This document shows positions 21,024 to 39,612 of a stretch of 46,285 bases of DNA, in pieces. The notes under the pieces were generated by a model, which was not told the origin of the DNA, made no database searches, and saw only the letters and a list, made by a program, of their open reading frames with translations. The position numbers and the translations under genes are program-made. The stretch comes from Pseudomonadota bacterium (lineage in GTDB: Bacteria; Pseudomonadota; Gammaproteobacteria; Steroidobacterales; Steroidobacteraceae), in NCBI GenBank assembly GCA_021787615.1, contig JAJYLP010000019.1:1-46285 (forward strand), in the 5' to 3' direction. Positions within the stretch are counted from its first letter, which is position 1, and every line of letters starts with the position of its first letter.

Positions 21024-22175
21024 TCAGCCTCCCGCGGCGCGCGCATCCTGCGCGCGCCCCTTCCACTGGCCACCGCGGCCCGAGGCGTAGCGCAGGGCCG
21101 AGTGCAGCGTCGCGCCGGCGTAAAAAAGCGCCACGGCCGGCAGCAACAGCGCGTAGGCGGGCGCGAGCCGGTAGAAGCGCACCAGAGGCAGATAGGCGAG
21201 CGTCATGAGCCCCCAGGCGAGTCCCCCGAGCGCCATGCACAACGGCTCACCGCTCGCGAGCAGCAGCGGCGGGGCCACGTAGGTCACGGCGAGCCCGGCG
21301 AGCGACGCGGCAAGCAGAGCCCAGGAGTGGCGCAGCTGGTTGAACGCAGTGCGTGAGATCATCGCGCCGATCTCGGCGAACGAGCCATAGACGCGCAGGC
21401 TGCGGGTGCCGCTCGCGAGGCCGAGCCACAGCGATCCGCCGCTCGCCTTGACCCGTGCAGCGAGCGCGCAGTCATCGATGATCTCGCCGCGGATCGCCTC
21501 GAGTCCGCCGGCGCGTGCAAGCGCCGCCGGGCGGATCAGGATGCACCCGCCCGCTGCCCCCGCGGTGCGCGAGGCGCCGCTGGCGATCCAGCGCGGCGGG
21601 TAGAGCTTGAAGAAGAAGAACACGAATGCCGGAATCAGACAGCGCTCCGCCCAAGTCGCGCTCGAGAGCCGCACCATCACCGACACCAGATCACGCCGCT
21701 GCCGCTCGGCCTGAGAGGCCAGCGCCGCCACCGAATCGCGGGCGTGCTCGATGTCCGCGTCGGTGAACAGCAGGAAGTCGGGCCCGTGCCGCTCGGCGGC
21801 GGCCACGCCCTGCGCCATCGCCCAGAGCTTGCCGCTCCAGCCGGGCGCAAGCGGCGCGGCCGCGAGCACCGTGAGCCGGCCCTCTCCGCCTGCGGCCGCA
21901 GCCGCCCGCCGCGCCTCCCCGGCCGTGTCGTCCGTGCTGCCGTCGTCCACCACGATCACCTGCAGCTCGCCGTCCCAGCGCTGCTCGAGCAGCGAGCGTA
22001 CCGCGCGGCCGATGTGCTCGGCCTCATTGCGCGCCGGCACGATCGCCACGATCCGCCCGCCCGCCGGGCCGGCGGCCGCGGGCAAGATGCGTGGCAGCCA
22101 GAATCGGCCGCGCGCGAGCAGCAGATACACCCAGATGGCGAGCGGCACGGCGGCCGCGAGGCACGGATCGGTCAT
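21024..22175 (-). CDS. hpnB: Hopanoid-associated glycosyltransferase HpnB
   Basis: A 383-residue membrane-bound GT2-family glycosyltransferase. After one N-terminal membrane helix it has IVAIVPARNEAEHIGRAV, VIVVDDGSTDDTAG and LLFTDADIEH (the DxD-type metal site), then GGCILIRPAAL and DDCALAARVK, and four or so C-terminal helices. Sequence order and length match the HpnB family found in hopanoid clusters; its sugar acceptor is not established to my knowledge. The ATG is preceded by a strong hairpin (22181-22197) and no ribosome binding site. The tnpB element lies about 60-75 bases upstream and separates the gene from hpnA, so it may have lost its original operon promoter. Confidence 0.88.
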   Translation of the reverse strand: MTDPCLAAAVPLAIWVYLLLARGRFWLPRILPAAAGPAGGRIVAIVPARNEAEHIGRAVRSLLEQRWDGELQVIVVDDGSTDDTAGEARRAAAAAGGEGRLTVLAAAPLAPGWSGKLWAMAQGVAAAERHGPDFLLFTDADIEHARDSVAALASQAERQRRDLVSVMVRLSSATWAERCLIPAFVFFFFKLYPPRWIASGASRTAGAAGGCILIRPAALARAGGLEAIRGEIIDDCALAARVKASGGSLWLGLASGTRSLRVYGSFAEIGAMISRTAFNQLRHSWALLAASLAGLAVTYVAPPLLLASGEPLCMALGGLAWGLMTLAYLPLVRFYRLAPAYALLLPAVALFYAGATLHSALRYASGRGGQWKGRAQDARAAGG

Positions 22176-22246: not shown

Positions 22247-22288
22247 CTCGCCCTCGGCTTGCTAAGCCGCTTTGGCGGGAAAGGCGAG
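22247..22288 (-). repeat. Right-end hairpin / possible omega-RNA scaffold of the tnpB element
   Basis: CTCGCC (22247-22252) pairs with GGCGAG (22283-22288), and inside it CGGCTT (22255-22260) pairs with AAGCCG (22264-22269). The tnpB stop codon lies within this structure. In active TnpB systems the RNA guide scaffold overlaps this 3' end, and the guide is the flanking sequence just beyond it, here running towards hpnB. Folding is seen; a guide RNA is inferred. Confidence 0.5.
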
Positions 22289-23615: not shown

Positions 23616-24968
23616 TTGAAAAAAAAGACGGGCATCGCAGGCAAGCATAGCCCACGGCGCCGACTCGTGGCAGCAGCGGTGCTCGGGGCCCTCCTCGGAT
23701 CGGGCGGTGCGGCGCTCGCCGGCAGCGCGCCCGCGCCGCGCCCGCAGAGCGCGGCGAAGCGGGCGCCGAACATGCACAAGCAGGCCGTGCCGCTGCACAA
23801 ACAGCGGATCAACTGGCTCAATCCCACCACCTGGCCGGTGCTGCCGGTGCCGGAGATCGCCGTCGGGCCCAACAGCGGCACCACGGTCGGGATCATCCCC
23901 ACCATCCTGCACACCAACGCCTCGAACCAGATCACGCGCATCATTGCCCCGGACATCACCCACAACCCCTACTTCGGCCTGGGCGTGGATGCGCGCATCT
24001 TCGAGTACCCCTCGCTCAATACCGAGTGGTCGGTGGTCGCCGGCATGCAGCAGCGGGTGCAGAGCTACTTCGATGCACTGTGGGAGACCGGCCTGCTGCG
24101 TCAGTCGCGCTGGTCGGTGAGCCTCGAGGCCGACTACGATCGCAGCGGCACGCCGCGCTTCTATGGCTTCGGCAACAATTCGCTGCGCATCAACCAGACC
24201 AACTACACCCGTCAGCAGATGTGGGTGCGCGCCAAGTTCGGCTGGAACATCAGCCACGCCTGGCAGCTCGAATACACCTTCGAGGCGCGCAAGGTGAAGG
24301 TCACCGCCGGGAGCCTGCCGCGCATCCCCTCCATCACCCAGCGGTTCGTCGATCTGCTCGGGATCGGCACCACCCACGAGCTGCTCGACCGCCTCTCGCT
24401 GATCTATGACACGCGCAACAACATCGTCATCCCGACGAGCGGCATGGACGTGGTGGCCTACGGCGGGATCGCAAGCCGCAACGTGTCGATCGACGATTCG
24501 CTGTTCACCGAGGCCGGCATCGACGGGCGCTTCTACTGGTCGCCGACCCACCGGCTTACGGTGGCCACGCACGTCGACCTGCGCTACGAGCCGACCACCC
24601 ACCACGTGCCGTTCTGGGGGCTGAGCAGCCTCGGCGGGGATGCCAGCACGATCGGCGGCTCGCAGCCGCTGCGCGGCTACGGCACGGCGCGCTTTTACGA
24701 CCGCAATGCGTTCGTGGTCAATCTCGAGCTGCGCCAGACAGTGCTCTCCCTGAACACCCTCTCGACCCACATCCTGATCCAGGTCACGCCCTTCTTCGAC
24801 ACCGGGCGGGTCTTTCACCACTACAGCACGCTGCCCTTCAACCATCTGCACAACGTGGTCGGCATCGGCTTTCGCGGCATCGCCCCACCGTCGGTGGTCG
24901 GCTACGTCGACGTCGGCGAGGGCAGCGAGGGCATCGCGGTGTTCACCGGCATCAACTACCCGTTCTGA
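23616..24968 (+). CDS. Omp85/BamA-like outer-membrane beta-barrel without POTRA domains
   Basis: From a TTG at 23616 the protein has 450 residues; the open frame extends to a GTG at 23499 but that part is Arg-rich and unlikely to be translated. The start is uncertain: GGGAG lies 14 bases before the TTG. A basic signal peptide (KHSPRRRLVAAAVLGALL) leads into a surface-antigen (D15-type) barrel: YDTRNNIVIPTSGMDV, WGLSSLGG, QPLRGYGTARFYDRNAF containing the family RGY loop motif, FFDTGRVF and a final Tyr-Pro-Phe. No POTRA repeats are present, so it is a bare barrel. It converges with hpnA and overlaps its end by 13 bases. A role in lipid export or surface assembly is conceivable but unsupported. 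Confidence 0.75.
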   Translation: MKKKTGIAGKHSPRRRLVAAAVLGALLGSGGAALAGSAPAPRPQSAAKRAPNMHKQAVPLHKQRINWLNPTTWPVLPVPEIAVGPNSGTTVGIIPTILHTNASNQITRIIAPDITHNPYFGLGVDARIFEYPSLNTEWSVVAGMQQRVQSYFDALWETGLLRQSRWSVSLEADYDRSGTPRFYGFGNNSLRINQTNYTRQQMWVRAKFGWNISHAWQLEYTFEARKVKVTAGSLPRIPSITQRFVDLLGIGTTHELLDRLSLIYDTRNNIVIPTSGMDVVAYGGIASRNVSIDDSLFTEAGIDGRFYWSPTHRLTVATHVDLRYEPTTHHVPFWGLSSLGGDASTIGGSQPLRGYGTARFYDRNAFVVNLELRQTVLSLNTLSTHILIQVTPFFDTGRVFHHYSTLPFNHLHNVVGIGFRGIAPPSVVGYVDVGEGSEGIAVFTGINYPF

Positions 24969-25960
24969 GGCGCATCGCCGAGATAGCCCTGCGCGCGGAA
25001 CCACTCGAGCGCGTCCGCAAACGCGAGCGAGGCCGGCCGGTGGCTGTAGCCGAGCTCGCGCTCGGCCTTGGCGCTCGAGAAATACATGCGCTTGCGCGCC
25101 ATGCGCACGCTGTCGACCGTCACCCGCGTCGGCTTGCCGGTGAGCCGCGCAAAGCCCTCGGCCACATAGGCAATCGGCAGCACCACGCCGTGCGGCAGCC
25201 TCAGGCGCGGCGGTGAGCGCCCGGCGAGGCGCGTGACCGCGATCAGAATGTCGCGCAGCGGCAGGTTCTCCCCGCCGAGGATGTAGCGCTCGCCGATGCG
25301 GCCGTGATGGAAGGCCAGCACGTGCCCGGCGGCAACGTCATCGACGTGCACGATGTTGAGCCCCGTGTCGACGTACGCTGGCGTGCGCCCCAGGGCGGCA
25401 TCGAGCAGGACCTGCCCGGTCGGTGTCGGCTTGATGTCGCGCGGCCCCACGGGAGCGGCCGGATTGACGATCACCACCGGTGCGCCGCCGCCGGCCGCCT
25501 CGAGCGCCGCCCGCTCGGCGAGAAACTTCGAGCGCTTGTAATGTCCCACCATCGACTCGAGCGAGACCGGCGTGTCCTCAGTGCCCGCAGTGCCGTCGGG
25601 CGGCAGGCCGATGCAGGCCACGCTGCTGGTATAGACGATGCGCCTGACGCCGGCGCGCCGCGCCGCCTCGAGCAGGTTGCGCGTGCCCTCGACGTTGGCG
25701 CGGTACATCGCCGGCGGATCCGGCACCCAGAGCCGATAGTCGGCCGCGGCATGAAACACCGCGTCGCATCCCTCGACGGCGCGCTCCAGTGAGGGCGCGT
25801 CGGTCAGATCGCCGACGGCGCTCTCCACACTGATCGCGCGCAGATTGCGCCGGTCGGATCCGGCACGCACCAGAGCGCGCACCTGCCAGCCGGCCGCGAG
25901 CAGCGTGCGCGCGAGCGCCGCGCCGACGAAGCCGGTTGCGCCGGTGACCAGCGCCCTCAA
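24956..25960 (-). CDS. hpnA: Hopanoid-associated sugar epimerase/dehydratase-like HpnA
   Basis: A 334-residue short-chain dehydrogenase/epimerase. It starts at a TTG (25960) whose last two bases and the next A form the TGA of hpnG, so the two genes overlap by four bases (TTGA). GGGGG lies just upstream. The Rossmann motif VTGATGFVGAALARTL is at the N-terminus; the active site has SSVA and YKRSK (Tyr-x-x-x-Lys). ILGGENLPLRDIL and RKRMYFSSAKAERELGY are typical of HpnA. The precise reaction is not established to my knowledge; a part in forming or altering the sugar-derived side chain is assumed. Last gene of the minus-strand operon before the interruption. Confidence 0.9.
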   Translation of the reverse strand: MRALVTGATGFVGAALARTLLAAGWQVRALVRAGSDRRNLRAISVESAVGDLTDAPSLERAVEGCDAVFHAAADYRLWVPDPPAMYRANVEGTRNLLEAARRAGVRRIVYTSSVACIGLPPDGTAGTEDTPVSLESMVGHYKRSKFLAERAALEAAGGGAPVVIVNPAAPVGPRDIKPTPTGQVLLDAALGRTPAYVDTGLNIVHVDDVAAGHVLAFHHGRIGERYILGGENLPLRDILIAVTRLAGRSPPRLRLPHGVVLPIAYVAEGFARLTGKPTRVTVDSVRMARKRMYFSSAKAERELGYSHRPASLAFADALEWFRAQGYLGDAPQNG

Positions 25961-26700
25961 TGCGCCCCCTGCCCATACTGCGCGGTGAGCGCGCGGCGCG
26001 CCGGCAGGCCCGGCTCGGCCAGACGCGTGAGCATGCCGCAGGCGGTACGAAAGCGCCGCGCGAGCGAGCGCACGGCCGGGATGCTCAACGGAGCGAACGC
26101 GAGCCCGAGCACGAGCCGGCCGATCGCGACTCCGCCTGCGCCGCTCGCCGCCAGCACCGCCGCGGGCAGATCGTCGGCGGCGGTATCGACGATCACCCGC
26201 AGCACGAGAAACGGCACGGCGGCCGCGGCGGCGAGCTGCGCCACGGCGGCGCTTTCCATGTCGACCGCGACACAACCGGTCTCCCGCCACGCGATCGCCT
26301 TGTCGAGCCGTGAGCCGAGCGGCACCCGGCTGGTGAGCAGCGCGCCGTCGCTGACCTGACAGTCGCGCGGCAGGGCCGCGAGCAGCGCCTCGCGCCAGCG
26401 CGCGTGGGTCGGCAGCGCCGGACCGTCGAGCACCCGCACCTCCCGGGGCACGAGCACCGCCCCGCACTCGAGCGCCGGGTCGAGCGCGCCGGCGGTGCCG
26501 AAGCTCGCGAGCGCACTCGCCCCGCCCCGCGCCAGGCGCTCCGCCCCGGCGTGCGCCGCATCCCAGCCCATGCCGCTCACGCTGAGCAGCGCATCATCCT
26601 CGAGCTCGAGCACCTCGCCGCCGATGACGAGGGCGCGATGCTCCGGGGCGAGCGCGCGAGCCTCGGATGCGAGCGCCGCGACAATGCCCACCCGGTTCAA
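25957..26700 (-). CDS. hpnG: Adenosylhopane nucleosidase/phosphorylase HpnG
   Basis: A 247-residue nucleoside-phosphorylase-like protein. It starts at a TTG (26700) that overlaps the TGA of shc by the four bases TTGA; the frame upstream is only the shadow of shc. The family is visible from VGIVAALASEARAL, LLSVSGMGWDAAHAGAERL, SFGTAGALDP, and CVAVDMESAAVAQLA, which carries the Glu that binds the ribose. HpnG is known to remove adenine from adenosylhopane, giving ribosylhopane, after HpnH has attached the adenosyl group. Tight overlap with shc and hpnA points to translational coupling. Confidence 0.92.
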   Translation of the reverse strand: MNRVGIVAALASEARALAPEHRALVIGGEVLELEDDALLSVSGMGWDAAHAGAERLARGGASALASFGTAGALDPALECGAVLVPREVRVLDGPALPTHARWREALLAALPRDCQVSDGALLTSRVPLGSRLDKAIAWRETGCVAVDMESAAVAQLAAAAAVPFLVLRVIVDTAADDLPAAVLAASGAGGVAIGRLVLGLAFAPLSIPAVRSLARRFRTACGMLTRLAEPGLPARRALTAQYGQGAH

Positions 26701-28658
26701 GGCGCTCGCGGCCTCCCGTGGCGGTAGGCCGCGAGCGCCCAGAGCGGGAAGAATGCGGTGTAGCCGTGATACTTCAGATAAAACACCCGCGGAAAGCCCG
26801 GGGCGGTGAAGCTCGGATGGCTCCACAGCCCGCGCTCCTGGGTGTCGAGGAGAAACTCGATGCCGCGCCGCACCGCCGCGTGGTCGCGCTGCCCCGCGGC
26901 GATCAGCGCCAGCACCGCCCAGGCGGTCTGATAGGGGGTGCTCGGGAACGGCTGTGTGCCGCGGCGCGCGCGATCGTAACTGTCGTTGCTCTCGCCCCAG
27001 CCGCCGTCGGAGTTCTGGCGGGCGAGGAACCACTCGACGGCGCGGCGCACCATCGGGTCGGCGGCGCCGACGCCCGCCGCCTCGAGCGCCACCAGCACCG
27101 ACCATGTGCCGTAGAGGAAGTTGGTGCCCCAGCGGCCGAACCACGAGCCGTCGGCCTCCTGCTCGCTCCTGAGGAACTCGATCGCGCGCGCGATCACGGT
27201 GCGGTCCGCGGGCCGCGCGGCGCGCGCCAGGATCGTGACCACACGCGCGGTCACGTCGCTGGTCGGCGGATCGAGCAGCGCGCCGTGATCGGCGAAGGGG
27301 ATGAGGTTGAGCCGGTAGTGCGTGTTGTCGGCGTCGAAGGCGGCGAAACCGCCGTTCTGGCTCTGCATGCCCACCAGCCACTCGAGCGAGCGCTCGATGG
27401 CATGGGCGTAGGGCGCGGCCGGCCCGGCCTGATGCATCGACCAGGCCACCACGGCGGTGTCGTCGAGGTCCGGATAGTGCGCGTTGCCGTACTGGAATGG
27501 CCAGCCGCCGGGGGGCACATCCGGCCGGCGCGCGCACCAGTCCCCGACGGTCTGGAGCACCTGGCGGGGGACCAGCCAGTCGAGGCCGCGCCGCGCGGCC
27601 GCGAGGCTCTCGGCATCACCGACCGTCTGCAGCGCCAGGCAGGCGAGCCCCGTGTCCCACACCGGCGAGACGCACGGCTGGCAGTAGGCCCGATCGCCCT
27701 GCTCAACCACGAGCTTCTCGATCGCGCGCTTGGCCGTGACGCGCCGCGGATCGTCGCTCGGGTAGCCGAGCAGCACCATCATCTCGAGCGCATTCACCAT
27801 GGCCGGGAAGATCGCCCCGAGCCCATCCTCCCCGTTCAGCCGCTCGAGCGTCCAGGCCTCGGCGCGCGCAATCGCCCGCCGGCGCATCGGCGCGGGTATC
27901 AGCGGGTCGATCACGCGGAACACCCGATCGAGCGTGAAGAACAGGCGCGCGAGCGCGCGCCCCTGGCTCGGCAGGTGGAAGTAGTGCCGTTCCTCCTCCG
28001 CCGGCGTCGTGAACAGCTCGTGGATGTTCACCCCGCGGGGATTGCGCGCCGCGGGCTTGAGCGTGCACAGCACGAACAGCGGCACCATCACCGTGCGCGA
28101 CCAGTAGGAGACGTTCTCGACGTGGAACGGGAACCAGCGCGGCAGCAGCATGATCTCCGCGGGGATGTAGGGCACGGCCCGCCAGGGCACCTCGCCGTAG
28201 AGCGCGAGCGCGATGCGCGTGAACACGTTGGTCCGCGCCGCCCCGCCGCGCGCGAGAATCGCCTCGCGCGCCCGCTGCATGTGTGGCGCCCCGGGATCGT
28301 CGCCGGCGAGCTTCAGCGCGAAATACACCTTCACGGTGCAGGAGAGGTCGAGCTCGCCACCCTCGTAGAGCGGCCAGCCGCCGCCGGGCTGCTGATGCGC
28401 GCGCAGATAGACCGCGAGCCGCCGCTCGAGCGCCGGGTCGATCTCATCCAGATAGTGCATCATCAGGATGTATTCGGCCGGGATGGTGCAGTCGGCCTCG
28501 AGCTCGAACACCCAGTGGCCGTCGGACTGCTGCAGGCCGACCAGTGCATCGCGCGCGGCGCGGATGGCGCGCTCGAGCCGTCCACCGCGCGCCCCGGAGG
28601 GCGCCGGCTCCATCACCTGCGGCTCGGCGAGCGCCGCATGCTGCGTTTCGTCGTTCAC
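26697..28658 (-). CDS. shc: Squalene-hopene cyclase
   Basis: A 653-residue terpene cyclase that folds squalene into hopene (and diplopterol) at the inner membrane. The GTG at 28658 is chosen because GGAGG stands nine bases before it and GTGA overlaps the TGA of the squalene synthase gene; another in-frame GTG six codons upstream lies within that binding site region. The acid motif DLDD (Asp397-Asp400) in YPDLDDTAVV is the DXDD proton donor. QW-type repeats are plentiful (QSDGHWVFELE, QPGGGWPLYEGG, QNGGFAAF, EADGSWFGRWG, NSDGGWGESN). Length is normal for the family. Also called hpnF. Confidence 0.97.
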   Translation of the reverse strand: MNDETQHAALAEPQVMEPAPSGARGGRLERAIRAARDALVGLQQSDGHWVFELEADCTIPAEYILMMHYLDEIDPALERRLAVYLRAHQQPGGGWPLYEGGELDLSCTVKVYFALKLAGDDPGAPHMQRAREAILARGGAARTNVFTRIALALYGEVPWRAVPYIPAEIMLLPRWFPFHVENVSYWSRTVMVPLFVLCTLKPAARNPRGVNIHELFTTPAEEERHYFHLPSQGRALARLFFTLDRVFRVIDPLIPAPMRRRAIARAEAWTLERLNGEDGLGAIFPAMVNALEMMVLLGYPSDDPRRVTAKRAIEKLVVEQGDRAYCQPCVSPVWDTGLACLALQTVGDAESLAAARRGLDWLVPRQVLQTVGDWCARRPDVPPGGWPFQYGNAHYPDLDDTAVVAWSMHQAGPAAPYAHAIERSLEWLVGMQSQNGGFAAFDADNTHYRLNLIPFADHGALLDPPTSDVTARVVTILARAARPADRTVIARAIEFLRSEQEADGSWFGRWGTNFLYGTWSVLVALEAAGVGAADPMVRRAVEWFLARQNSDGGWGESNDSYDRARRGTQPFPSTPYQTAWAVLALIAAGQRDHAAVRRGIEFLLDTQERGLWSHPSFTAPGFPRVFYLKYHGYTAFFPLWALAAYRHGRPRAP

Positions 28659-29782
28659 GGCGAGGTGCCTCCGCACTGCAGTTCCGCTGCCGAGGGCTCC
28701 TCGTCCGCCTCGGCGGACGCCCCGGACGGCACACCGGCCGGGCGCAGCGGCACCTCGCCTGCGGCGAGCGGCAGGCCGCGCGCGGCGCGCTCGAACAGCC
28801 GGCGCAGCATGGCGTCATTGCGCACCGACAGGTTGGTGAGCGTCTGGGTCATCGCCACCGCCGAGCGCGACACCTTCACCTGGCGGCCCTCGGTGAAAGC
28901 GGGGTTGTCCTGGATCTTGCGCAGCGTGAGGGCCGCCAGCCCGATGGCCCACAGGCAGAAGCGGCGGATTCCGGCCTCCTCCCCGGGGATGAGCAGCGTG
29001 AAGGTGAGCGCGTTGCGCAGATGGCGGTGCGCGATGCCGATCAGCTCGATCATGCCCGCCTGGAAGCGCGCATCGCTGCGCTCGGGTGCGAGGGTGGCCA
29101 GATCGACCCCGTGGCGGCTAAAGAGCTCCTGCGGCAGCCAGCAGGCCCCGCGCGCGCGGTCCTCCCACACGTCCTTCAAGATGTTGGTCATCTGCAGGCC
29201 CTGGCCGAAGGACGGGGCGAGCGCGTAGAGCTCGGCGTAATGGCGCTCGATCTGGCGCGAATAGCCGCAGAAGAGCTCCGTGAGCGTCTCCCCGACGATG
29301 CCCGCGACGTAGTAGCAGTAGGTATCAAGGTCGGTCGTGCGCGCGAGCCCCCGCAGACTCGCGGTCCGCTGGAACTGATGCATGCCGTGGCTCATCACCT
29401 CGATGCAGCGGCGGATGGCGGCGCGCTGGCGCGCCTCGAAGCGCTCGACCACACGCATCACCCGCGCTGTGTTGGCGACGAGATCGCGCTCGGCCGGCAG
29501 CGTGTGCTCGGTGAGGCGCGGCACCACCTCGCGCGCGAACCGCTCGGCATCCTCGCGGCCCTGCGCCACGCGGGTGAAGCGCCGCAGGAACCGGTAGGTG
29601 TCCTCGGCCTCGAGCGCCGGCTCGTCCTCGATGGTATCGGCGATGCGGCACAGCAGATACGCGCTCGTCACCGCGGTGCGCAGCGCCGGCGGCAGCTGCG
29701 GGATCGTCAGCGCAAAGGTGCGCGAGACGTGCGGCAGGATCTCGTCCTGGTAGGCCTCATCGGACACTGGCAATGCTGACAT
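28655..29782 (-). CDS. Squalene synthase (single-enzyme type)
   Basis: The 375-residue enzyme joins two farnesyl diphosphates. Asp-rich site one is LLCRIADTIEDEP and site two is MTNILKDVWEDRARG; between them is YCYYVAGIVGETLTELFC, which resembles the reducing squalene synthase branch. The opening VSRTFALTIPQLPPALR also fits this branch. A ~100-residue C-terminal part includes a membrane-like segment (RRFCLWAIGLAALTL). Most hopanoid bacteria use three proteins, HpnC, HpnD and HpnE; none of these is in the window. I therefore infer that this one protein makes squalene directly. A HpnD-like presqualene synthase is the alternative. It starts 16 bases after the farnesyl diphosphate synthase gene. 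Confidence 0.85.
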   Translation of the reverse strand: MSALPVSDEAYQDEILPHVSRTFALTIPQLPPALRTAVTSAYLLCRIADTIEDEPALEAEDTYRFLRRFTRVAQGREDAERFAREVVPRLTEHTLPAERDLVANTARVMRVVERFEARQRAAIRRCIEVMSHGMHQFQRTASLRGLARTTDLDTYCYYVAGIVGETLTELFCGYSRQIERHYAELYALAPSFGQGLQMTNILKDVWEDRARGACWLPQELFSRHGVDLATLAPERSDARFQAGMIELIGIAHRHLRNALTFTLLIPGEEAGIRRFCLWAIGLAALTLRKIQDNPAFTEGRQVKVSRSAVAMTQTLTNLSVRNDAMLRRLFERAARGLPLAAGEVPLRPAGVPSGASAEADEEPSAAELQCGGTSP

Positions 29783-29798: not shown

Positions 29799-30704
29799 TC
29801 AGTTGCGGCGCGCGAGCAGCCACTCGGCCACCGCGCGCAGCGGATCGGCCTGCGCGCCGAGCGGCGCGAGCGACTCGAGCGCCGAGGCGCTCAGGCGCCG
29901 CACGCGCTCCTGCGAGGCGGGGATGCCGAGGATCGCCGGATGGGTCGACTTGCCGCGCTCGCGGTCCGAGTGCGCCGCCTTGCCGAGCGTGGCGGTGTCG
30001 CCGAGCTCATCGAGCAGGTCGTCCTGGATCTGAAAGGCGAGGCCGATGGGGGCTGCAAACCCCTCGAGCGCGCGCTCGCGGCGCGCATCGAGCCCGGGCA
30101 CGCAGGCCGCGCCCATCATGACGCTGGCGCGGATCAGCGCGCCGGTCTTGAGCGAGTGCAGCTGCTCGACCTGCTCGATGCCGAGCTTGCGCCCTTCGGA
30201 CTCCAGGTCGATCGCCTGGCCGCCGGCCATGCCGACACTGCCAATCGCCTCGGCGAGCAGTCCCACGAGCCGCACCCGCACCGCGGGCAAGTCGGGCAGG
30301 CACGGGTCGCGCGCGAGCAGCTCGAAGGCGAGCGACTGCAGCGCATCGCCGACCAGCAGCGCCGTCGCCTCATCGTAGGCCTTGTGGCAGGTGGGCCGTC
30401 CGCGGCGCAGGTCGTCATCGTCCATCGCCGGCAGATCGTCGTGCACCAGCGAGTACACGTGCACCAGCTCGAGCGCGCAGGCGGCCGCCTCGACCTGCTC
30501 CTCGGCGAGCCCCAGCGAGCGGGCCGTGGCGAGCAGCAGAATCGGCCGCACCCGCTTGCCACCGCCGAGCACGCTGTAGCGCATCGCCTCGTGCAGTCGC
30601 TGCGGCAGGCGCTCGCGCGGCGCCAGCCGACGCGCGAGCGCCTCCTCCATGCGCGCGCGCCACTGATCGAGCTGCGCGGGGATGAACTCAGGCGCCGCTG
30701 ACAC
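29799..30704 (-). CDS. ispA: Farnesyl diphosphate synthase (short-chain polyprenyl synthase)
   Basis: A 301-residue trans-prenyltransferase that builds farnesyl diphosphate from isopentenyl and dimethylallyl diphosphate. The first Asp-rich motif is LVHDDLPAMDDDDLRRG and the second is LAFQIQDDLLDELGD; GGGKRVRPIL and GMAGGQAIDLE are also typical of IspA. Residues before the first motif (LELVHVYSLVHDD) fit a C15-making enzyme. Its ATG lies 17 bases inside the end of hpnH, so it is translated from the same mRNA. It directly feeds the squalene synthase that follows. Confidence 0.92.
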   Translation of the reverse strand: MSAAPEFIPAQLDQWRARMEEALARRLAPRERLPQRLHEAMRYSVLGGGKRVRPILLLATARSLGLAEEQVEAAACALELVHVYSLVHDDLPAMDDDDLRRGRPTCHKAYDEATALLVGDALQSLAFELLARDPCLPDLPAVRVRLVGLLAEAIGSVGMAGGQAIDLESEGRKLGIEQVEQLHSLKTGALIRASVMMGAACVPGLDARRERALEGFAAPIGLAFQIQDDLLDELGDTATLGKAAHSDRERGKSTHPAILGIPASQERVRRLSASALESLAPLGAQADPLRAVAEWLLARRN

Positions 30705-31845
30705 GGCGGCCTTCCCGGTTCGCGCTCGCGCGCACCTCGCTGAGCGGAATCTTCACTTCCGTCGGGGCGGGCGCCTTCAGCGAGGGCTCCTCGTACACCA
30801 GGGGCAGATCCGGGGCCATCGGCCCCTCGAGCCGCGGCCCCTTGAGCGAGCGCCACAGCGCCTTCAGCGGGTGCGCGAAGGCGTCATCGACGGCCGTGCC
30901 CTCGTAGCCGCAGTGCGCCATGCAGTTGTTGCAGAGCGGATTGCGACCGACGCCGTAGCGCTCCCACGCGGTATCCTCCATCAGCGAGCGGAAGCTCTCG
31001 GCGTAGCCCTCTCCGGTGAGCAGGTAGCAGGGCCGCTGCCAGCCGAAGATGTTGTATGTCGGGGTGCTCCACGGCGTGCACTGGTACGCCTGATTGCCGG
31101 CGAGGAAATCGAGGAACAGCGAGGAGTGGTTGAATGACCAGCGCGCACCGCGCTGCCGGCCGCGCTTGAAGATCTCGCGGAACAGCGTCTTGCTGGCATT
31201 GCGGCCGAGGAACACGTCCTGGCGCGGCGCATGCTGGTAGCTGTAGCCGGGCGAGACGGTGATGCCCTCGACGCCGAGCGTCATGGCGAGGTCGAAGAAC
31301 CCGGCCACGTCGTCCGGATCCTCCTGCTGAAACAGCGTGCAGTTGACGGTCACGCGGAAGCCCTTTGAGCGGGCCAGGCGGATCGCCGCGACCGCCTTGT
31401 CGAACACGCCCTCCTGGCACACCGACTCGTCGTGCCGCTCGCGGTTGCCGTCGAGGTGAATCGAGAAAGTCAGGTACGGCGAGGGGCGGTACTCGTCGAT
31501 GTGCTTGGCGAGCAGGATCGCGTTGGTGCACAGGTACACGAAGCGCTTGCGCGCGACGATACCCTCGACGATGCGCGGCATGTCCTTGTGGATGAGCGGC
31601 TCGCCGCCCGGAATCGACACCATGGGCGCGCCGCACTCCTCCACGGCCGCGATCGCCGCCTCCACCGAGAGGCGCTGCTGCAGGATTTCCTTCGGGTAGT
31701 CGATCTTGCCGCAGCCGGCGCAGGCCAGGTTGCACTGAAACAGCGGCTCGAGCATGAGCACGAGCGGGTAGCGCTTCTGACCGCGCAGCTTGCGGCTGAC
31801 GATGTAGCGTGCGACCCGGTACTGTTGAATTAGAGGAATACCCAA
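30688..31845 (-). CDS. hpnH: Adenosylhopane synthase HpnH (radical SAM)
   Basis: A 385-residue radical SAM enzyme that attaches the 5'-deoxyadenosyl group to hopene, the first step towards extended hopanoids. The cluster motif CNLACAGC is followed by GKIDYPKE, VSIPGGEPLIH and FSIHLDGNRERHD. The protein should begin LGIPLIQQYRVARYIVSRKL; I take the TTG at 31845, with GGGAG seven bases before it, since no ATG is in place and the frame upstream is low-complexity. The C-terminal cysteines (NPLCNNCMAHCGYEG) are typical. It is the second gene of the operon, 74 bases after idi. Confidence 0.95.
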   Translation of the reverse strand: MGIPLIQQYRVARYIVSRKLRGQKRYPLVLMLEPLFQCNLACAGCGKIDYPKEILQQRLSVEAAIAAVEECGAPMVSIPGGEPLIHKDMPRIVEGIVARKRFVYLCTNAILLAKHIDEYRPSPYLTFSIHLDGNRERHDESVCQEGVFDKAVAAIRLARSKGFRVTVNCTLFQQEDPDDVAGFFDLAMTLGVEGITVSPGYSYQHAPRQDVFLGRNASKTLFREIFKRGRQRGARWSFNHSSLFLDFLAGNQAYQCTPWSTPTYNIFGWQRPCYLLTGEGYAESFRSLMEDTAWERYGVGRNPLCNNCMAHCGYEGTAVDDAFAHPLKALWRSLKGPRLEGPMAPDLPLVYEEPSLKAPAPTEVKIPLSEVRASANREGRRVSGA

Positions 31846-32519: not shown

Positions 32520-32674
32520 CACGCGCCGCCCCCCGCCCCAGGCTCAACCGTGTACCCTATGGGACGTTCAGGGAATCGCATTCCTGTGGCTCTGTCGCTC
32601 ATGGCGGTCCGCGGCGTGAGGATTCCGTTGGACAGGACTACCCGCATCACGTTCAGTATAACTCCTTAAGGATC
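32520..32674. promoter_or_regulatory. Divergent promoter region of the hopanoid island
   Basis: The 155-base gap must hold the promoters for the idi-hpnH arm (left) and the hpnI-hpnJ arm (right). The clearest element is an AT-rich island at 32655-32662 giving TATACT on the minus strand and TATAAC on the plus strand, but neither has a good -35 partner at the right distance. GGAAT-CGC-ATTCC (32572-32584) is a small inverted repeat that could bind a regulator. Promoter positions are not settled. Confidence 0.4.
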
Positions 32675-33823
32675 ATGCTCGCTCTGGGCCTGCTGCTCGG
32701 CGCCGCCGCGCTCGGTTACGCGCTCACAGCCTATCTGGCGGTGCTGCGCTCGCGCAACATCGCCGTTCCCCTAGCGCCGGCGGCGCGCCAGCCGGTCACG
32801 GTGCTGAAGCCGCTGTGCGGGGCCGAGCCGGGGCTCGCCGAGGCGCTGCGCAGTCTGTGCGCCCAGGAGTATCCGGGCGTGCAGATCGTCTTCGGGGTGC
32901 AGGACCCGCACGATCCGGCGCTCGCGGTCGTGCGTGCGCTCAAGGCCGAGCACCCCGGGCTCGACATCGCGGTGGTCATCGATGCGGCCCGCCACGGATT
33001 CAGCGCCAAGGTCAGCAACCTCATCAATATGATGCGCGCGGCGCGCCACGACTGGCTGGTGCTCGCCGACAGCGACGTACGCGTCCCGCCGGGCTACCTC
33101 GCCGGGGTGTGCGCCCCCCTGGCCGACCCCTCGGTGGGCATCGTCACCTGCCCCTACCGGGGCCTGCCGGCGCACAGCAGCGGCGCGGCGGGCCTGTGCT
33201 CGCGGCTCGGGGCGCTGTTCGTCAACGAGTGGTTCATGCCCTCGGTGCGGGTCGCGGCGCTGTTCGGCTCGCGCGATTTCGCCTTCGGGGCGACCATCGC
33301 CCTGCGCCGCTCGGCGCTCGAGGCGATCGGCGGATTCCCCGCCATCGCCGATCAGCTGGCGGATGATTACCGCCTCGGGGAACTCACCCGGGCCCAGGGC
33401 CTGCGCACGGTGCTCTCGGAGGTGGTGGTGGACACCGGCATCGATGAGCGCAGCCTGCGCCAGCTGCTGCAGCACGAGACCCGCTGGCTGCGGACCATCC
33501 GGGCGGTCCGCCCGGGCGGCTACGCCGCCGCCGGCATTACCTTCAGCTTGCCCGTGGCAGTACTGGGCTGGGCGCTGGCGAGAGGCTCGCTGGCCGCCTT
33601 GGCGCTGCTGATCGCCACCGCCGCGGCCCGCGTGATGCTACATTTCGCAGCCGGCGATCCGGGGCCGGGCAAGTCCAGCCCCTGGAGAGGCCTGTGGCTG
33701 CTGCCGCTGAGCGATGGGCTCGGCTTTGCGCTGTGGTGCTGGGGTTTCGCGACCCGCGAAGTGCAGTGGCGCCAGGAGCGATACCGGGTGGAGCGCGACG
33801 GCTCGGCGCACCCGATAACCTGA
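32675..33823 (+). CDS. hpnI: Hopanoid glycosyltransferase HpnI
   Basis: A 382-residue GT2 glycosyltransferase with an N-terminal membrane helix and C-terminal helices. Motifs: VTVLKPLCGAEPGLAEALRS, IVFGVQDPHDPALAVV, WLVLADSDVRVPPGYL (metal site), GATIALRRSALEAIGGF and ADDYRLGELTRAQG, then QLLQHETRWLRTIR with the product-side motif. HpnI is known to add N-acetylglucosamine to bacteriohopanetetrol, the first step to the cyclitol ether. AAGGA lies only two bases before the ATG, an unusually short spacing. First gene of the plus-strand arm. Confidence 0.93.
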   Translation: MLALGLLLGAAALGYALTAYLAVLRSRNIAVPLAPAARQPVTVLKPLCGAEPGLAEALRSLCAQEYPGVQIVFGVQDPHDPALAVVRALKAEHPGLDIAVVIDAARHGFSAKVSNLINMMRAARHDWLVLADSDVRVPPGYLAGVCAPLADPSVGIVTCPYRGLPAHSSGAAGLCSRLGALFVNEWFMPSVRVAALFGSRDFAFGATIALRRSALEAIGGFPAIADQLADDYRLGELTRAQGLRTVLSEVVVDTGIDERSLRQLLQHETRWLRTIRAVRPGGYAAAGITFSLPVAVLGWALARGSLAALALLIATAAARVMLHFAAGDPGPGKSSPWRGLWLLPLSDGLGFALWCWGFATREVQWRQERYRVERDGSAHPIT

Positions 33824-33835
33824 GGACGTGAAGTC

Positions 33836-35260
33836 ATGATGAGAACCCTGTTCCTGCATCCCCCGTCGTTCGATGGCTTCGATGGCGGCGCCGGTGCGCG
33901 CTATCAGGCCAAGCGGGAGATCCGCTCCTTTTGGTACCCGACCTGGCTCGCGCAGCCGGCCGCGCTGGTGCCGGGGAGCCGGCTGCTCGATGCGCCGGCC
34001 GATGGGCTCTCGATGGCCGAGGTATTGCCGCTCGCGCGCGAGTACGACCTGGTCATCATGCACACCAGCACGCCGTCCTTTCCGACGGACGCCAAGGTGG
34101 CCGAACTGCTCAAGGCGCAGAACCCACGCCTGAAGATCGGCATGGTCGGCGCCAAGGTGGCGGTCGATCCGGCCGGCTCCCTCTCCGCCTCGGCGGCGAT
34201 CGATTTCGTGGCGCGCGAGGAGTTCGACTACACCTGCAAGGAGCTCGCCGAGGGCCGCCCGTTCGCCGACATCACCGGTCTGTCCTTCCGCCGCCCCGAC
34301 GGGGTGATCGAGCACAACGCCCCGCGCGCCATGATCGAGAACATGGACGATCTGCCGTGGGTGACGCCGGTCTACCAGCGCGACCTGACCATCCCGAACT
34401 ACTTCATCGGCTACCTGCAGCACCCCTATGTGTCCTTCTACACCGGGCGCGGCTGCCGCTCCAAGTGCACCTTCTGCCTGTGGCCGCAGACCGTCGGCGG
34501 GCACCGCTACCGCGTGCGCAGCGCGCAGAGCGTCATCGACGAGGTGCGCTGGATCAAGGAGAACATGCCCGAGGTGAAGGAGATCTTCTTCGACGACGAC
34601 ACCTTCACCGACTTCCGGCCGCGCGTCGAGGAGATCGCCCGCGGCCTCGGCAAGCTCGGGGTCACCTGGTCGTGCAACGCCAAGGCCAACGTGCCGTACG
34701 AGACGCTGAAGATCATGAAGGACAACGGCCTGCGGCTGCTGCTGGTCGGGTACGAGTCCGGCAACGATCAGATCCTGCACAACATCAGGAAGGGCCTGCG
34801 CACCGACATCGCGCGGCGCTTCACCAGCGACTGCCGCAAGCTCGGCGTGGTGATCCACGGCACCTTCATCCTCGGCCTGCCCGGGGAGACCGCCGAGACG
34901 ATCCGCGAGACCATCCAGTTCGCCGTCGACATCAACCCGCACACCATCCAGGTGTCCCTCGCCGCGCCCTACCCGGGCACGCAGCTGTACCAGGAGGCGG
35001 TGGAAAACGGCTGGCTCGCCGCCAACGAGAACCTCAACCTCGTCAACGACAGCGGCGTGCAGCTCTCCCCGATCAGCTATCCGCACCTGCCGGCCAAAGA
35101 GATCTATCACGCGGTCGAGACCTTCTATAAGCGCTTCTACTTCCGCCCGCGCAAGATCGCCGAGCTCACCGGCGAGATGCTGCGCAGCTGGGAGATGACC
35201 AAGCGGCGCCTGCGCGAGGGTGTGGAGTTCTTCCGTTTCCTGCACGCGCACGAGGCCTGA
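33836..35260 (+). CDS. hpnJ: Radical SAM enzyme HpnJ (cyclitol ether formation)
   Basis: A 474-residue protein with a B12-binding-like N-terminal domain (about 1-170) and a radical SAM core whose cluster motif is GCRSKCTFCLWP. EIFFDDDTFTDFRPR and LLLVGYESGNDQIL are typical of the family. HpnJ is known to be needed to turn the glucosamine head group of bacteriohopanetetrol into the five-membered cyclitol ring. GAGGA stands nine bases before the ATG; a second ATG is adjacent. Spacing to hpnI is 12 bases and to hpnK nine, so all are one operon. Confidence 0.95.
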   Translation: MMRTLFLHPPSFDGFDGGAGARYQAKREIRSFWYPTWLAQPAALVPGSRLLDAPADGLSMAEVLPLAREYDLVIMHTSTPSFPTDAKVAELLKAQNPRLKIGMVGAKVAVDPAGSLSASAAIDFVAREEFDYTCKELAEGRPFADITGLSFRRPDGVIEHNAPRAMIENMDDLPWVTPVYQRDLTIPNYFIGYLQHPYVSFYTGRGCRSKCTFCLWPQTVGGHRYRVRSAQSVIDEVRWIKENMPEVKEIFFDDDTFTDFRPRVEEIARGLGKLGVTWSCNAKANVPYETLKIMKDNGLRLLLVGYESGNDQILHNIRKGLRTDIARRFTSDCRKLGVVIHGTFILGLPGETAETIRETIQFAVDINPHTIQVSLAAPYPGTQLYQEAVENGWLAANENLNLVNDSGVQLSPISYPHLPAKEIYHAVETFYKRFYFRPRKIAELTGEMLRSWEMTKRRLREGVEFFRFLHAHEA

Positions 35261-35269
35261 GCGCTGGGC

Positions 35270-36136
35270 TTGAAGGCGCTGATCGTCACTGCCGATGATT
35301 TCGGCCTGCACGAGGCGGTCAACGAGGCGATTGAGCAGGCCCATCGCGAGGGCGTGCTCAGCTGCGCGAGCCTGATGGTCGGGGCGGCCGCGATCGACGA
35401 TGCCGTGCACCGCGCGCGCGCGCTGCCGCAGCTGGCGGTCGGGCTGCACGTGGTGCTGGCCGACGGCCAGGCGGTATTGCCGCCGCGGCGCATCCCGGCG
35501 CTGGTGGATGATTCGGGCCGCTTCGCCGACCGCATGGCGCGCGACGGAGTGCGATTCTTCGCCCTGCCGCGGGTGAGACGCCAGCTCGAGGCAGAGATCC
35601 GCGCGCAGTTTTCGGCCTTCGCCGCCACCGGCCTGCCGCTCGATCACGTGAACGCCCACAAACACTTCCACCTGCATCCGACGGTGCTGTCGATGCTGCT
35701 CGCGATCGGCGCCGAGCACGGACGCCCCCCCGTGCGCTGGCCGCGCGAGCCGCGCCGGGCATCCGGCCGCGGCGCATCGCTTGCAGGCGTGCTGCTCTCG
35801 CCCTGGCTCGCGCTGATGCGCGCCCGGCTGCGCGCCGCCGGCATCGCCTGCAACGATCAGATCTTCGGTCTCTCGGGAACCGGCGCGATGGACGAGACAC
35901 GCGTGCTCGAGATCCTGGCCCATCTGCCGGAAGGGGTGACGGAGATCTATCTGCACCCGGCGACCCGTAACGGACTGACGCCCACGATGAGCACCTACCG
36001 CCACCGCGATGAGCTTGAGGCGCTGCTCAGCGCGCGCGTGCGCGCGGCAGTGAGCGCCTCCGGCGCCGCAACCGGAGGGTTCCGCACGCTCACCGGCGCG
36101 CGCGGACCGCTCAGCGAACCCCGTCGCGCCGCATGA
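35270..36136 (+). CDS. hpnK: Hopanoid deacetylase HpnK (YdjC family)
   Basis: A 288-residue YdjC-type sugar deacetylase. It starts at a TTG (35270) giving the family opening LKALIVTADDFGLHEAVNEAI, where the Asp pair binds metal; later GLHVVLADG and DHVNAHKHFHLHPTV provide the His ligands. HpnK is known to deacetylate the N-acetylglucosaminyl hopanoid made by HpnI before HpnJ acts. The ribosome site is weak. The gene ends in ATGA, overlapping the start of hpnL. Confidence 0.92.
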   Translation: MKALIVTADDFGLHEAVNEAIEQAHREGVLSCASLMVGAAAIDDAVHRARALPQLAVGLHVVLADGQAVLPPRRIPALVDDSGRFADRMARDGVRFFALPRVRRQLEAEIRAQFSAFAATGLPLDHVNAHKHFHLHPTVLSMLLAIGAEHGRPPVRWPREPRRASGRGASLAGVLLSPWLALMRARLRAAGIACNDQIFGLSGTGAMDETRVLEILAHLPEGVTEIYLHPATRNGLTPTMSTYRHRDELEALLSARVRAAVSASGAATGGFRTLTGARGPLSEPRRAA

Positions 36137-37116
36137 GACTGACCGTCCGGATCGCTCTGCTTGCCGGGCTGACCCTGCTGGTCGTGCTGCTGGCGCGCGA
36201 GGGCACGGCCATCCTCACGCCGATTGCGCGCGCCGGCTGGGTGCTGCTGTGGCTGGTGCCTCTGCACGCACTGCCGATCCTGCTCGACTCGCGCGGCTGG
36301 CAGGCGCTGCTCAGCCGGCGCGTCAACGCCGTGCGGCTGTTCTGGATCGCCACGGTGCGCGAGGCGGTCAACCGGCTGCTGCCGGTGGCCAACATCGGCG
36401 GCGACCTCGTCGGCATCCGCCTGCTCGCATCCAGCGGAGTCGACGGGGTGTGGGCCGCGGCCAGTGTCACGGCCGAGCTCCTGGTGACCCTGTTCAGTCA
36501 GTACCTGTTCGTGCTGCTCGGCGTCACCTGCCTGCTCAGCCTGATCGGCATGGTGCACGATGCGAGCGATGTGCTCATCGGGCTCGCCGCGAGCCTGCCG
36601 GTGTTCCTGCTTGCCGCCGCCCTGCTGCACTACGGCTCGGTATTCGAGCGGCTTGAGAGGATCGCGGTCAAGATGCTCGGGCAAGAGACGCTGCGCTTCC
36701 TCAACGGCAAGTGGACCGCGCTCGATGCCGCAGTGCGCTCGCTGATCGCCGACTGGACGCGCTGCACGCGCACCATGCTGTGGCAGCTCGCCGGCCTGAT
36801 CGCCGGAACGCTCGAGACGTGGCTCGCGTTGCGCTGGCTCGGGCATCCGGTGAGTTTCGAGGCGGCGCTCGTTCTGGAGAGCCTGACTCAGGCGGCGCGC
36901 AATTTCATCTTCGTGGTGCCGGCGGGACTCGGCGTTCAGGAAGCCACCCTGGTCGGGGTCGGACGGCTGCTCGGCATCGACGCCGACCTCGCCTTGGCGC
37001 TGTCGCTGACCAAGCGCATGCGCGAGATTCTCTTCAGTGCGCCGGCGCTGCTATCCTGGTACTGGACTGAAGGAAAGAGGGAATTTCACCATGTCCGCGG
37101 TTCCGGCCGACTTTGA
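36133..37116 (+). CDS. hpnL: Hopanoid-associated membrane protein HpnL
   Basis: A 327-residue integral membrane protein with about eight hydrophobic helices, of the lysylphosphatidylglycerol-synthetase-like membrane family. Characteristic stretches are NRLLPVANIGGDLVGIRLL and FIFVVPAGLGVQEATLVGVG. Order and length match HpnL of other hopanoid clusters. A function in moving hopanoid or its head group across the membrane is assumed in the field but not shown by this sequence. It overlaps hpnK by four bases and the next gene by 26 bases. Confidence 0.9.
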   Translation: MRLTVRIALLAGLTLLVVLLAREGTAILTPIARAGWVLLWLVPLHALPILLDSRGWQALLSRRVNAVRLFWIATVREAVNRLLPVANIGGDLVGIRLLASSGVDGVWAAASVTAELLVTLFSQYLFVLLGVTCLLSLIGMVHDASDVLIGLAASLPVFLLAAALLHYGSVFERLERIAVKMLGQETLRFLNGKWTALDAAVRSLIADWTRCTRTMLWQLAGLIAGTLETWLALRWLGHPVSFEAALVLESLTQAARNFIFVVPAGLGVQEATLVGVGRLLGIDADLALALSLTKRMREILFSAPALLSWYWTEGKREFHHVRGSGRL

Positions 37117-37957
37117 ATCGCCCCGCCTGCGCGCAGGATCGCCCGAGCACAAGCGACTCCTCGCCGAGTTCTTCTTCGCGACCCACCTCGAGTACGATCC
37201 GGAGCGCATCGACTGGCCCCGCCTCTCGCACGAGGAGCTCAGGCGCCTGACCGGCCTGCCTTTCTGGCAGGAGGCGGTGTCCACCGAGAACGTCACGTCC
37301 AACACCGTCACCGCCGCCGCGGCGCTCGAGGCCGACCCGCTGTTGCGCCGCGCGATCGCGCTGCAGGGCCTCGAGGAGCAGCGCCACGCGCGCCTCCTCG
37401 CCGCGCTCACCGCGCACTACCGCATTCCGATCAAGTTCCCGGCGCCCTACGCGCCGCGCAACCTGGAGGATGATTTTCTCTTCGCCGGCTTCGGGGAATG
37501 CTTCGACTCGTTTTTTGCCTTCGGCCTGTTCGCGCTCGCGCGCGAGTCGGGTTACTTTCCGGCGGCGCTGGTGACGGTGTTCGATCCGGTGATGGAGGAG
37601 GAAGTGCGCCACATCCTCTTCTTCGTCAACTGGGTCAAGGCGCGCCGCATGCAGCTTGCCTGGTGGAAGCGGCCGGCCTTCCGCGCGCGCTGTGCGTGGA
37701 TCATCGTGAAGCAGGTCGCCTCGCGGGTGAAGACGGCCCGCGGTCTCGGCGGCGGCGGCACGCCGGCCTCTGGCGAGAACTTCACCCTGACCGCGCACCA
37801 GGACATCGGTGCGCCCGTGACGCTGCACGGACTGCTGGCGAGGTGCCTCGCCGAGAACGACCGGCGCATGGCCCGCTACGACGCCCGCCTGCTGCGCCCG
37901 AGGCTGGTCCCGGGCATCGCGCGGGCGCTGATTCGGATTCTGCCGAAGAGCCTCTGA
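37091..37957 (+). CDS. Ferritin-like diiron protein in the hopanoid operon
   Basis: A 288-residue protein starting at MSAVPADFESPRL, with AGAGGGA about nine bases before the ATG and its first 26 bases inside hpnL, so it is clearly part of this operon. Its sequence shows the ligand pattern of a four-helix diiron site: a Glu in helix 1 (Glu61 or Glu66), LEEQRHARLL with Glu96xxHis99, FGECFDSFF with Glu136, and MEEEVRHILFF with Glu171xxHis174. This is the E, ExxH, E, ExxH set of diiron oxygenases, desaturase-like proteins and rubrerythrin-type ferritins. There is no signal peptide; a weakly hydrophobic part follows the last motif. I do not know a named family. A redox step on the hopanoid head group or skeleton is a reasonable inference. 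Confidence 0.8.
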   Translation: MSAVPADFESPRLRAGSPEHKRLLAEFFFATHLEYDPERIDWPRLSHEELRRLTGLPFWQEAVSTENVTSNTVTAAAALEADPLLRRAIALQGLEEQRHARLLAALTAHYRIPIKFPAPYAPRNLEDDFLFAGFGECFDSFFAFGLFALARESGYFPAALVTVFDPVMEEEVRHILFFVNWVKARRMQLAWWKRPAFRARCAWIIVKQVASRVKTARGLGGGGTPASGENFTLTAHQDIGAPVTLHGLLARCLAENDRRMARYDARLLRPRLVPGIARALIRILPKSL

Positions 37958-38805: not shown

Positions 38806-39612
38806 TCATTCGGTGCCCGCGCGGCGGGCAATGAGCCCGCGCCCAGGGTCGTAACCGAGGATGGCGAGCGTCATGAAGATGACGAGCGAGCCGCCGACGA
38901 CGGCGAATGCCTCGAGATTGAACTTCTCGTAGAGCGCGAAGCGGATCAGCTCCACGGCATGCGTGAACGGATTGGCCATGCAGATGTAGTAGAGCTTCAG
39001 GTTCGCCTGCTTCACGGTCCACAGCGGATAGAGCGCGGACGAGGCGAAGAACATCGGGAAGATCACGAAATTCATGACGCCGGCAAAATTCTCGAGCTGG
39101 CGGATCACCGAGGACAGGAACAGGCCCAGCCCGCTCAGCATCATGCCCGCCAGGATCAACGCCGGCAGCACGGTGAGGTAGCCGAGCCGCGGCGGATGGA
39201 CCCCCCAGAAATAGGCGATGAACAGAAAGACGTACGCCTGCAGCACCGAGACGATGACCGCTGCGATCAGCTTCGAGGTGAGCAGGTACCAGCGCGGCAG
39301 CGGACTCACCAACAGCGTGCGCATGCTGCCGGTCTCTCGGTCCCAGACCATCGACAGCGAGCTCTGCATGCCTTGAAACATCAGGATCATGCCGATCAGT
39401 CCGGGCGCGATATAGACCTGGTACGGAATGTAGGTCTGATACGGCGGGATGATGGACACGCCGAGCACGAAGCGAAATCCCGTCGCGAAGATCAGCAGCC
39501 ACACCAGCGGCCGCACCAGGGCCGCGAGGAACCGACCGCGCTGGTTGATGAAGCGCAGCGCCTCGCGCCAGATGATCCCGCGCAGGCAGCGCGCATAGTG
39601 GATGGGCCTCAT
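38806..39612 (-). CDS. ABC-2 type permease, PQQ-alcohol-dehydrogenase-associated (PedC-like)
   Basis: A 268-residue ABC-2 exporter membrane subunit with about six helices and the family motif near MVWDRETGSMRTLLVSPLPR. It starts with ATG overlapping the TGA of the ATPase gene (ATGA). Its opening (GIIWREALRFINQRGRFLAALVRPLVWLL) matches the permease that accompanies PQQ-dependent alcohol dehydrogenases, such as PedC in Pseudomonas putida. With the preceding ATPase it would export a substrate or toxic product of alcohol oxidation, or a cofactor. The substrate is not known. Confidence 0.85.
   Translation of the reverse strand: MRPIHYARCLRGIIWREALRFINQRGRFLAALVRPLVWLLIFATGFRFVLGVSIIPPYQTYIPYQVYIAPGLIGMILMFQGMQSSLSMVWDRETGSMRTLLVSPLPRWYLLTSKLIAAVIVSVLQAYVFLFIAYFWGVHPPRLGYLTVLPALILAGMMLSGLGLFLSSVIRQLENFAGVMNFVIFPMFFASSALYPLWTVKQANLKLYYICMANPFTHAVELIRFALYEKFNLEAFAVVGGSLVIFMTLAILGYDPGRGLIARRAGTE

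Follow-up and report, generated by a model that had tools for sequence, protein, structure and literature searches.

R2 proteins carry their metal ligands in the order Glu, ExxH, Glu, ExxH, and in class I ribonucleotide reductase the radical tyrosine of R2 lies four residues past the histidine of the first ExxH motif, being absent from some subclasses. The six-ligand order of R2 and R2lox, set on four helices, is also found in a 288-residue protein encoded at positions 37091..37957 of the forward strand (ATG to stop) of the window, by which is meant the whole 46,285-nucleotide stretch analysed (positions 1 to 46,285 of contig JAJYLP010000019.1, assembly GCA_021787615.1, from a bacterium of the Steroidobacteraceae). 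The overall helical fold, as modelled, appears to be common to this protein, R2lox and the R2 of class I ribonucleotide reductase, whereas the window protein differs from both in its sequence (about 10% identity), in the 30 to 37 residues between its successive ligand groups and in its linkage to hopanoid genes. Its family also lacks the tyrosine at His+4, all 143 homologues having Leu or Ile at residue 103, and identity as a ribonucleotide reductase R2 was rejected because of this absence and because of the hopanoid-bound distribution of the gene. The protein is probably an O2-activating diiron oxidase dedicated to hopanoids, a reading whose computed basis is the fold type, the six invariant ligands and the presence of HpnH, the enzyme that forms the hopanoid side chain, in every carrier genome tested.

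The best solved-structure match to a profile of 42 diverse homologues was a MiaE-type diiron tRNA hydroxylase (5ux1), in which both ExxH motifs were aligned, but the match is not significant (E 0.11) and these hydroxylases have different partners. Scanned singly, some of the 42 homologues weakly matched further diiron enzymes, with 14 matching AurF (PF11583) and six rubrerythrin (PF02915) in Pfam (E up to 0.1), and two matching the Mg-protoporphyrin monomethyl ester cyclase (NF010172) in NCBIfam (E up to 0.01). The ten homologues whose Pfam scores were inspected all lay below the cut-offs (at best 13.3 bits against 29.6 for AurF, and 19.2 against 22.8 for rubrerythrin), and the window protein itself matched neither family. 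The weak matches were mostly to diiron enzymes, the exceptions being STAT_linker, Nterm_IS4 and DUF2202 in Pfam, and a dynamin chain and a hypothetical protein in the PDB. Solved acyl-ACP (acyl carrier protein) desaturases were not among the 50 structure matches listed, which excludes nothing. A preliminary description of the window had stated that the gene carries no standard hpn name, and this stands: the window protein passes no Pfam or NCBIfam cut-off, with no match in NCBIfam, PHROGs or PDB (phmmer) and a single sub-threshold, unrelated match in Pfam. The family is a new one within the known R2-like diiron oxidases, attached to a known pathway, and the accessible portions of the open-licence PMC literature held no paper assigning it or a pentol hydroxylase.

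The AlphaFold model of the window protein (pLDDT 88) was placed by structure searches in the R2/R2lox diiron type, its modelled ligand-bearing helices spanning residues 59-79, 83-109, 125-153 and 158-187. This fits the diiron carboxylate site proposed in the preliminary description, whose residues (Glu96xxHis99, Glu136 and Glu171xxHis174) were correctly read and whose unnumbered first Glu is E66. Every one of the 143 homologues of the wider set keeps all six ligands (E66, E96, H99, E136, E171 and H174), as does each of the 78 sequences longer than 240 residues, a set that includes the window protein and leaves out three shorter rows of 81. A loose version of the ligand motif was met by 109 of 5000 shuffles of the window protein, making the motif alone weak, and it was judged to be above chance because the six ligands are conserved across homologues. 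A diiron-type, R2/ferritin-like helical fold with invariant ligands is thereby a supported prediction for this protein.

Among the genomes sampled, the gene is confined to those able to make extended hopanoids, and the link with hopanoid genes suspected at the outset proved to be conserved. In 385 Alphaproteobacteria, HpnH scored above its cut-off in 105 genomes and the diiron-type gene was found in 27, all of them HpnH-positive, with no carrier among the 280 HpnH-negative genomes (Fisher p 4e-17, shared ancestry ignored). HpnH was present in 21 of 75 Reyranellaceae, of which 20 carry the gene, as do none of the 54 HpnH-negative genomes. Thirty carrier genomes sampled from the best 80 of 82 matches of the homologue search all had HpnH above cut-off, against 0 of 14 controls, every one of which gave weaker radical-SAM matches under the same search. 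The gene is rare in the Gammaproteobacteria, where four of 369 genomes carry it, the window's genome (in which it is single-copy) counted. Of 99 genomes from the window's close kin, 41 had a match (a count that takes in the window's own genome), all of them from its own family, although many of these genomes are incomplete and HpnH was unchecked there.

The cyclitol head group had been proposed as one possible target, and as a required substrate it was set aside: HpnJ was not found in 14 of the 27 alphaproteobacterial carriers (some genomes may be incomplete), making the head group unlikely in that role and leaving the core or the side chain. Nor was HpnJ found in any of six Reyranellaceae-family carriers (G116, G121-G124 and G391), a figure that incompleteness could inflate. 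HpnJ was slightly commoner in carriers than in non-carriers (13/27 vs 8/31), a difference that is not significant (Fisher p 0.10).

The family comprises two paralogues, A and B, separated in a tree of 143 homologues (126 and 17 rows, SH-aLRT 100; the search was a quick one and the program warned of long branches). Their mean identity is 33% and all ligands are kept in both. The window protein, itself not a row of the tree, was assigned to A through its nearest kin L002 and L003 (95% and 92% identical). Nine positions clearly split A from B, mostly conservatively (L56V, A62V, L103I, A143G, F156L, V167L, L176V, L253Y and Y263F), those at 62, 103, 143, 167 and 176 being on ligand-bearing helices. 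The family occurs in 107 of 200 Acetobacteraceae genomes, with A and B together in 27 and B alone in none, these calls being made by score (second copy 280-306 bits) with few of the B copies placed in the tree; in 23 of the 27 the two genes lie within about 260 bases. Seven carriers of the 385-genome alphaproteobacterial sample have A and B and none clearly has B alone, while the 20 Reyranellaceae carriers comprise, by score, 14 with A and B, four with A only, one with a B-scoring match only (G733) and one with a fragmentary match (G727). In locus L154 (G182), A and B are fused head to tail in one continuous frame on the reverse strand (1408-3357 in reverse-strand coordinates).

The genes for the delta-6 and delta-11 ring double bonds (section 4.1.2.7) and for the pentol and hexol hydroxyls of hopanoids are called unknown in a 2025 study of genotype and phenotype (PMC12583986), which reports that hpn-cluster neighbourhoods yielded no candidate for the pentol/hexol step. 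In Table 3 of that study, covering 54 strains, acetic acid bacteria and Skermanella are rich in both pentol/hexol and unsaturated hopanoids, Rhodopila, Nitrospirillum and several Sphingomonadales have pentols only, and Afipia has double bonds only. In Enhydrobacter, placed by the authors of the study closest to Reyranella on the basis of 16S and gyrB, pentol and hexol together amount to 77% and unsaturated bacteriohopanepolyol derivatives (BHPDs) to 1%. Because the gene is present in 20 of the 21 Reyranellaceae capable of making hopanoids, usually with both paralogues, and because Enhydrobacter has this profile, side-chain hydroxylation is tentatively favoured as the reaction, at rather less than an even chance. 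The two irons held by the six ligands would activate O2, and the resulting high-valent diiron species would abstract hydrogen at an unactivated CH2 in a C35 (extended) hopanoid, with the side-chain CH2 adjoining the tetrol as the likeliest site. The A-type enzyme of the window would then convert bacteriohopanetetrol or a derivative to the pentol (C-31), and B, where present, would introduce one further hydroxyl (C-30), yielding the hexol. That A and B form a regiospecific pair of diiron hydroxylases setting the number of side-chain hydroxyls, A from tetrol to pentol and B from pentol to hexol, is possible but somewhat doubtful.

Several observations weigh against this hydroxylase interpretation. 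Muricoccus (Roseomonas) pecuniae DSM 25622, the sole strain for which gene and phenotype were both observed, carries A (L068), yet is described as making one BHPD alone, in an amount of 0.1 mg/g, and as having neither pentol/hexol nor unsaturated forms (0% for each; PMC12583986), and because it makes neither modification the specific reaction is held at the level of inference. The tie between Enhydrobacter and the gene runs through the family Reyranellaceae rather than through its own genome, and within that family G733 has only its B-scoring match. Acetic acid bacteria and Burkholderia cenocepacia cannot separate hydroxylation from desaturation because both make unsaturated as well as pentol hopanoids; in B. 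cenocepacia, strain K56-2 has a pentol cyclitol ether, with no hexol mentioned in the available text, and the species also makes unsaturated forms (PMC8560942), while NCTC13227 has an A-type locus (L033; B was not searched for genome-wide). The gene had no match in 78 of the 105 HpnH-positive Alphaproteobacteria, some of them possibly pentol makers, and its presence could not be demonstrated in Sphingomonadales, which make pentols. When these genomes were to be placed by 16S, two of the 14 carriers examined gave a match, as did 14 of the 78 non-carriers. Carrier G661 was nearest to Azospirillum (91.9%), and the best named records listed for six non-carrier 16S genes were Skermanella for four (89-92%), Ensifer (90.4%) and Methylosinus/Bosea (92%), a Sphingomonadales record being nearest to none of the six queried. 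The two-iron site is itself a prediction.

Desaturation of the hopanoid rings, in which two hydrogens would be taken off the pentacyclic core at delta-6 by A and at delta-11 by B, much as soluble acyl-ACP desaturases act on fatty acids, is the less likely but best-surviving alternative. The two paralogues match the two double-bond positions, whose genes are unassigned, and the six acetic acid bacterial genera reported with 49-82% unsaturated BHPDs (PMC12583986) belong beside the frequent carriage of the gene in Acetobacteraceae (107 of 200, 27 with both paralogues); the double bond in the unsaturated cyclitol ether of B. cenocepacia is placed at delta-6 (PMC8560942). However, desaturation sits poorly with the near-universal carriage of the gene in hopanoid-capable Reyranellaceae when Enhydrobacter is 1% unsaturated, and with the fully saturated M. 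pecuniae, and among solved structures the closest in sequence is a hydroxylase, although that match is not significant.

Some other oxidation of extended hopanoids, whether of a side-chain alcohol to a 32-oxo product, by oxidative C-C cleavage, or on a nucleoside or ribosyl intermediate beside HpnH, is unlikely. Formation of a 32-oxo group is the first half of a two-step pentol route discussed in PMC12583986. An early side-chain intermediate is possible as substrate because ispH-hpnH is found close to the gene in Cupriavidus, Roseomonas and some further genomes and because the gene occurs both with and without HpnJ, and the weak family matches span N-oxygenation, hydroxylation and ring cyclisation. 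Alcohol oxidation seldom requires a diiron enzyme, which counts against this alternative, and in the portions of the literature examined no known product of an oxidation of this kind follows the distribution of the gene. That the protein is instead a diiron protein with a sensing (iron or O2) or protective role, expressed together with the hopanoid genes, is improbable, for although such roles occur among R2lox-like and rubrerythrin-like proteins and the gene seems dispensable within the window's genus (the 41 of 99 close genomes, many incomplete and with HpnH unchecked), no HpnH-less carrier was found among 385 plus 75 genomes, and a biosynthetic step suits better two conserved paralogues that are often in tandem within hpn rows.

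The proteins termed 'sterol desaturases' are, like the present family, candidates for an unassigned oxidative step of hopanoid synthesis (PMC12583986, PMC6460317), but are described in the available text as histidine-rich integral membrane proteins (PMC6460317) and are not R2-like. In the alphaproteobacterial study their genes lie outside the hpn cluster, and the one proposed there for double bonds is reported from about two thirds of the Rhodospirillales and half of the Sphingomonadales but from none of the Hyphomicrobiales (PMC12583986). This distribution is closer to the pattern of pentols and hexols in Table 3 than to the pattern of double bonds, and the gene could compete with the present family as a candidate for pentol formation.

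The diiron-type gene of the window lies at one end of the following hopanoid region, scores being given against NCBIfam cut-offs.

21024..22175, reverse strand: hpnB (TIGR03469, 481 bits, cut-off 379)
22262-23404, reverse strand: TnpB-family RNA-guided endonuclease, between hpnB and the hpnA/shc arm (NF040570, 106.8 bits, cut-off 100)
24956..25957, reverse strand: hpnA, span approximate, within the longer open reading frame 24956-26467 (TIGR03466, 493 bits, cut-off 368, residues 171-496 of the frame)
26697..28676, reverse strand: squalene-hopene cyclase, shc (TIGR01507, 806 bits, cut-off 431)
28655..29782, reverse strand: squalene-synthase-like protein (best model TIGR01559, 119 bits, below the cut-off of 287)
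30688..31842, reverse strand: hpnH (TIGR03470, 536 bits, cut-off 225, match from residue 95 of a long open reading frame; start approximate, the frame being open further upstream)
31920-32522, reverse strand: isopentenyl-diphosphate isomerase, between hpnH and hpnI (over its cut-off)
32675..33823, forward strand: hpnI (TIGR03472, 443 bits, cut-off 310)
33836..35260, forward strand: hpnJ, radical SAM (TIGR03471, 825 bits, cut-off 578)
35270..36136, forward strand: hpnK (TIGR03473, 396 bits, cut-off 233)
36133..37116, forward strand: hpnL (TIGR03476, 293 bits, cut-off 196)
37091..37957, forward strand: diiron-type protein, A-type
38806-39612, reverse strand: PedC-type alcohol ABC transporter permease, downstream of the diiron-type gene (TIGR03861, 400 bits, cut-off 241)

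The reverse strand of the region also encodes a farnesyl-diphosphate (FPP) synthase that passes its NCBIfam cut-off. Squalene apparently derives from the one squalene-synthase-like protein, on which the HpnD and HpnC models score below TIGR01559. The reading frame is as previously described, beginning within the 3' end of hpnL with 26 shared bases, and HpnI, HpnJ, HpnK and HpnL all exceed their cut-offs. A purine-rich AAGGAAAGAGGG lies 9 bases upstream of the ATG, and the N-terminal hydropathy of the protein is low.

Neighbours were surveyed in 100 loci of 4-19 kb each, of which 57, from several lineages, hold an hpn, shc, squalene synthase or ispH gene (tblastn E 1e-12), so that the gene does recur beside hopanoid genes in other genomes. 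The order is hpnI-J-K-L-A in the window, its kin and Nevskia, hpnI-J-K-A-B-hpnL-hpnA-hpnB in L056, L227 and L228, A-hpnB-hpnA-ispH-hpnH-I-J-K in Cupriavidus and hpnN-B-A-hpnA-hpnB-shc in Reyranella (L074). Cupriavidus necator is among the species sampled, with loci L070 and L075. Neighbours of hpn, shc or ispH type were not found in the other 43 loci, among them all 15 Burkholderia loci and L211-L224; HpnH is encoded elsewhere in the genome in 11 of 11 Burkholderia genomes checked. In 46 selected loci the recognisable recurrent neighbours were hopanoid genes, an ABC-type ATPase in four loci and antisense frames, and no dedicated electron donor was recognised among the recurrent neighbours, most neighbour clusters being unannotated. 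One Burkholderia locus (L033) has an FMN-reductase-like gene upstream, with all scores below cut-off. The proposal of a hopanoid-tailoring diiron enzyme is thus upheld as to fold, ligands, lack of a family name and a strong linkage to hopanoid genes, both genome-wide and positional, and is not supported as to the cyclitol head as a required substrate.

The bacterial equivalents of sterols, hopanoids leave fossils from which ancient environments are read. The diiron-type family provides a concrete candidate for one unassigned step in their synthesis, the addition of extra side-chain hydroxyls or of ring double bonds, and is amenable to deletion or expression in ordinary laboratory strains. To our knowledge, this fold would be put to a new use if an R2-like diiron enzyme proved to act on a pentacyclic lipid. 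If A and B are indeed hydroxylases, they would constitute a new diiron enzyme family acting on triterpenoid lipids and would supply the missing genes for the pentol and hexol biomarkers of geochemistry.
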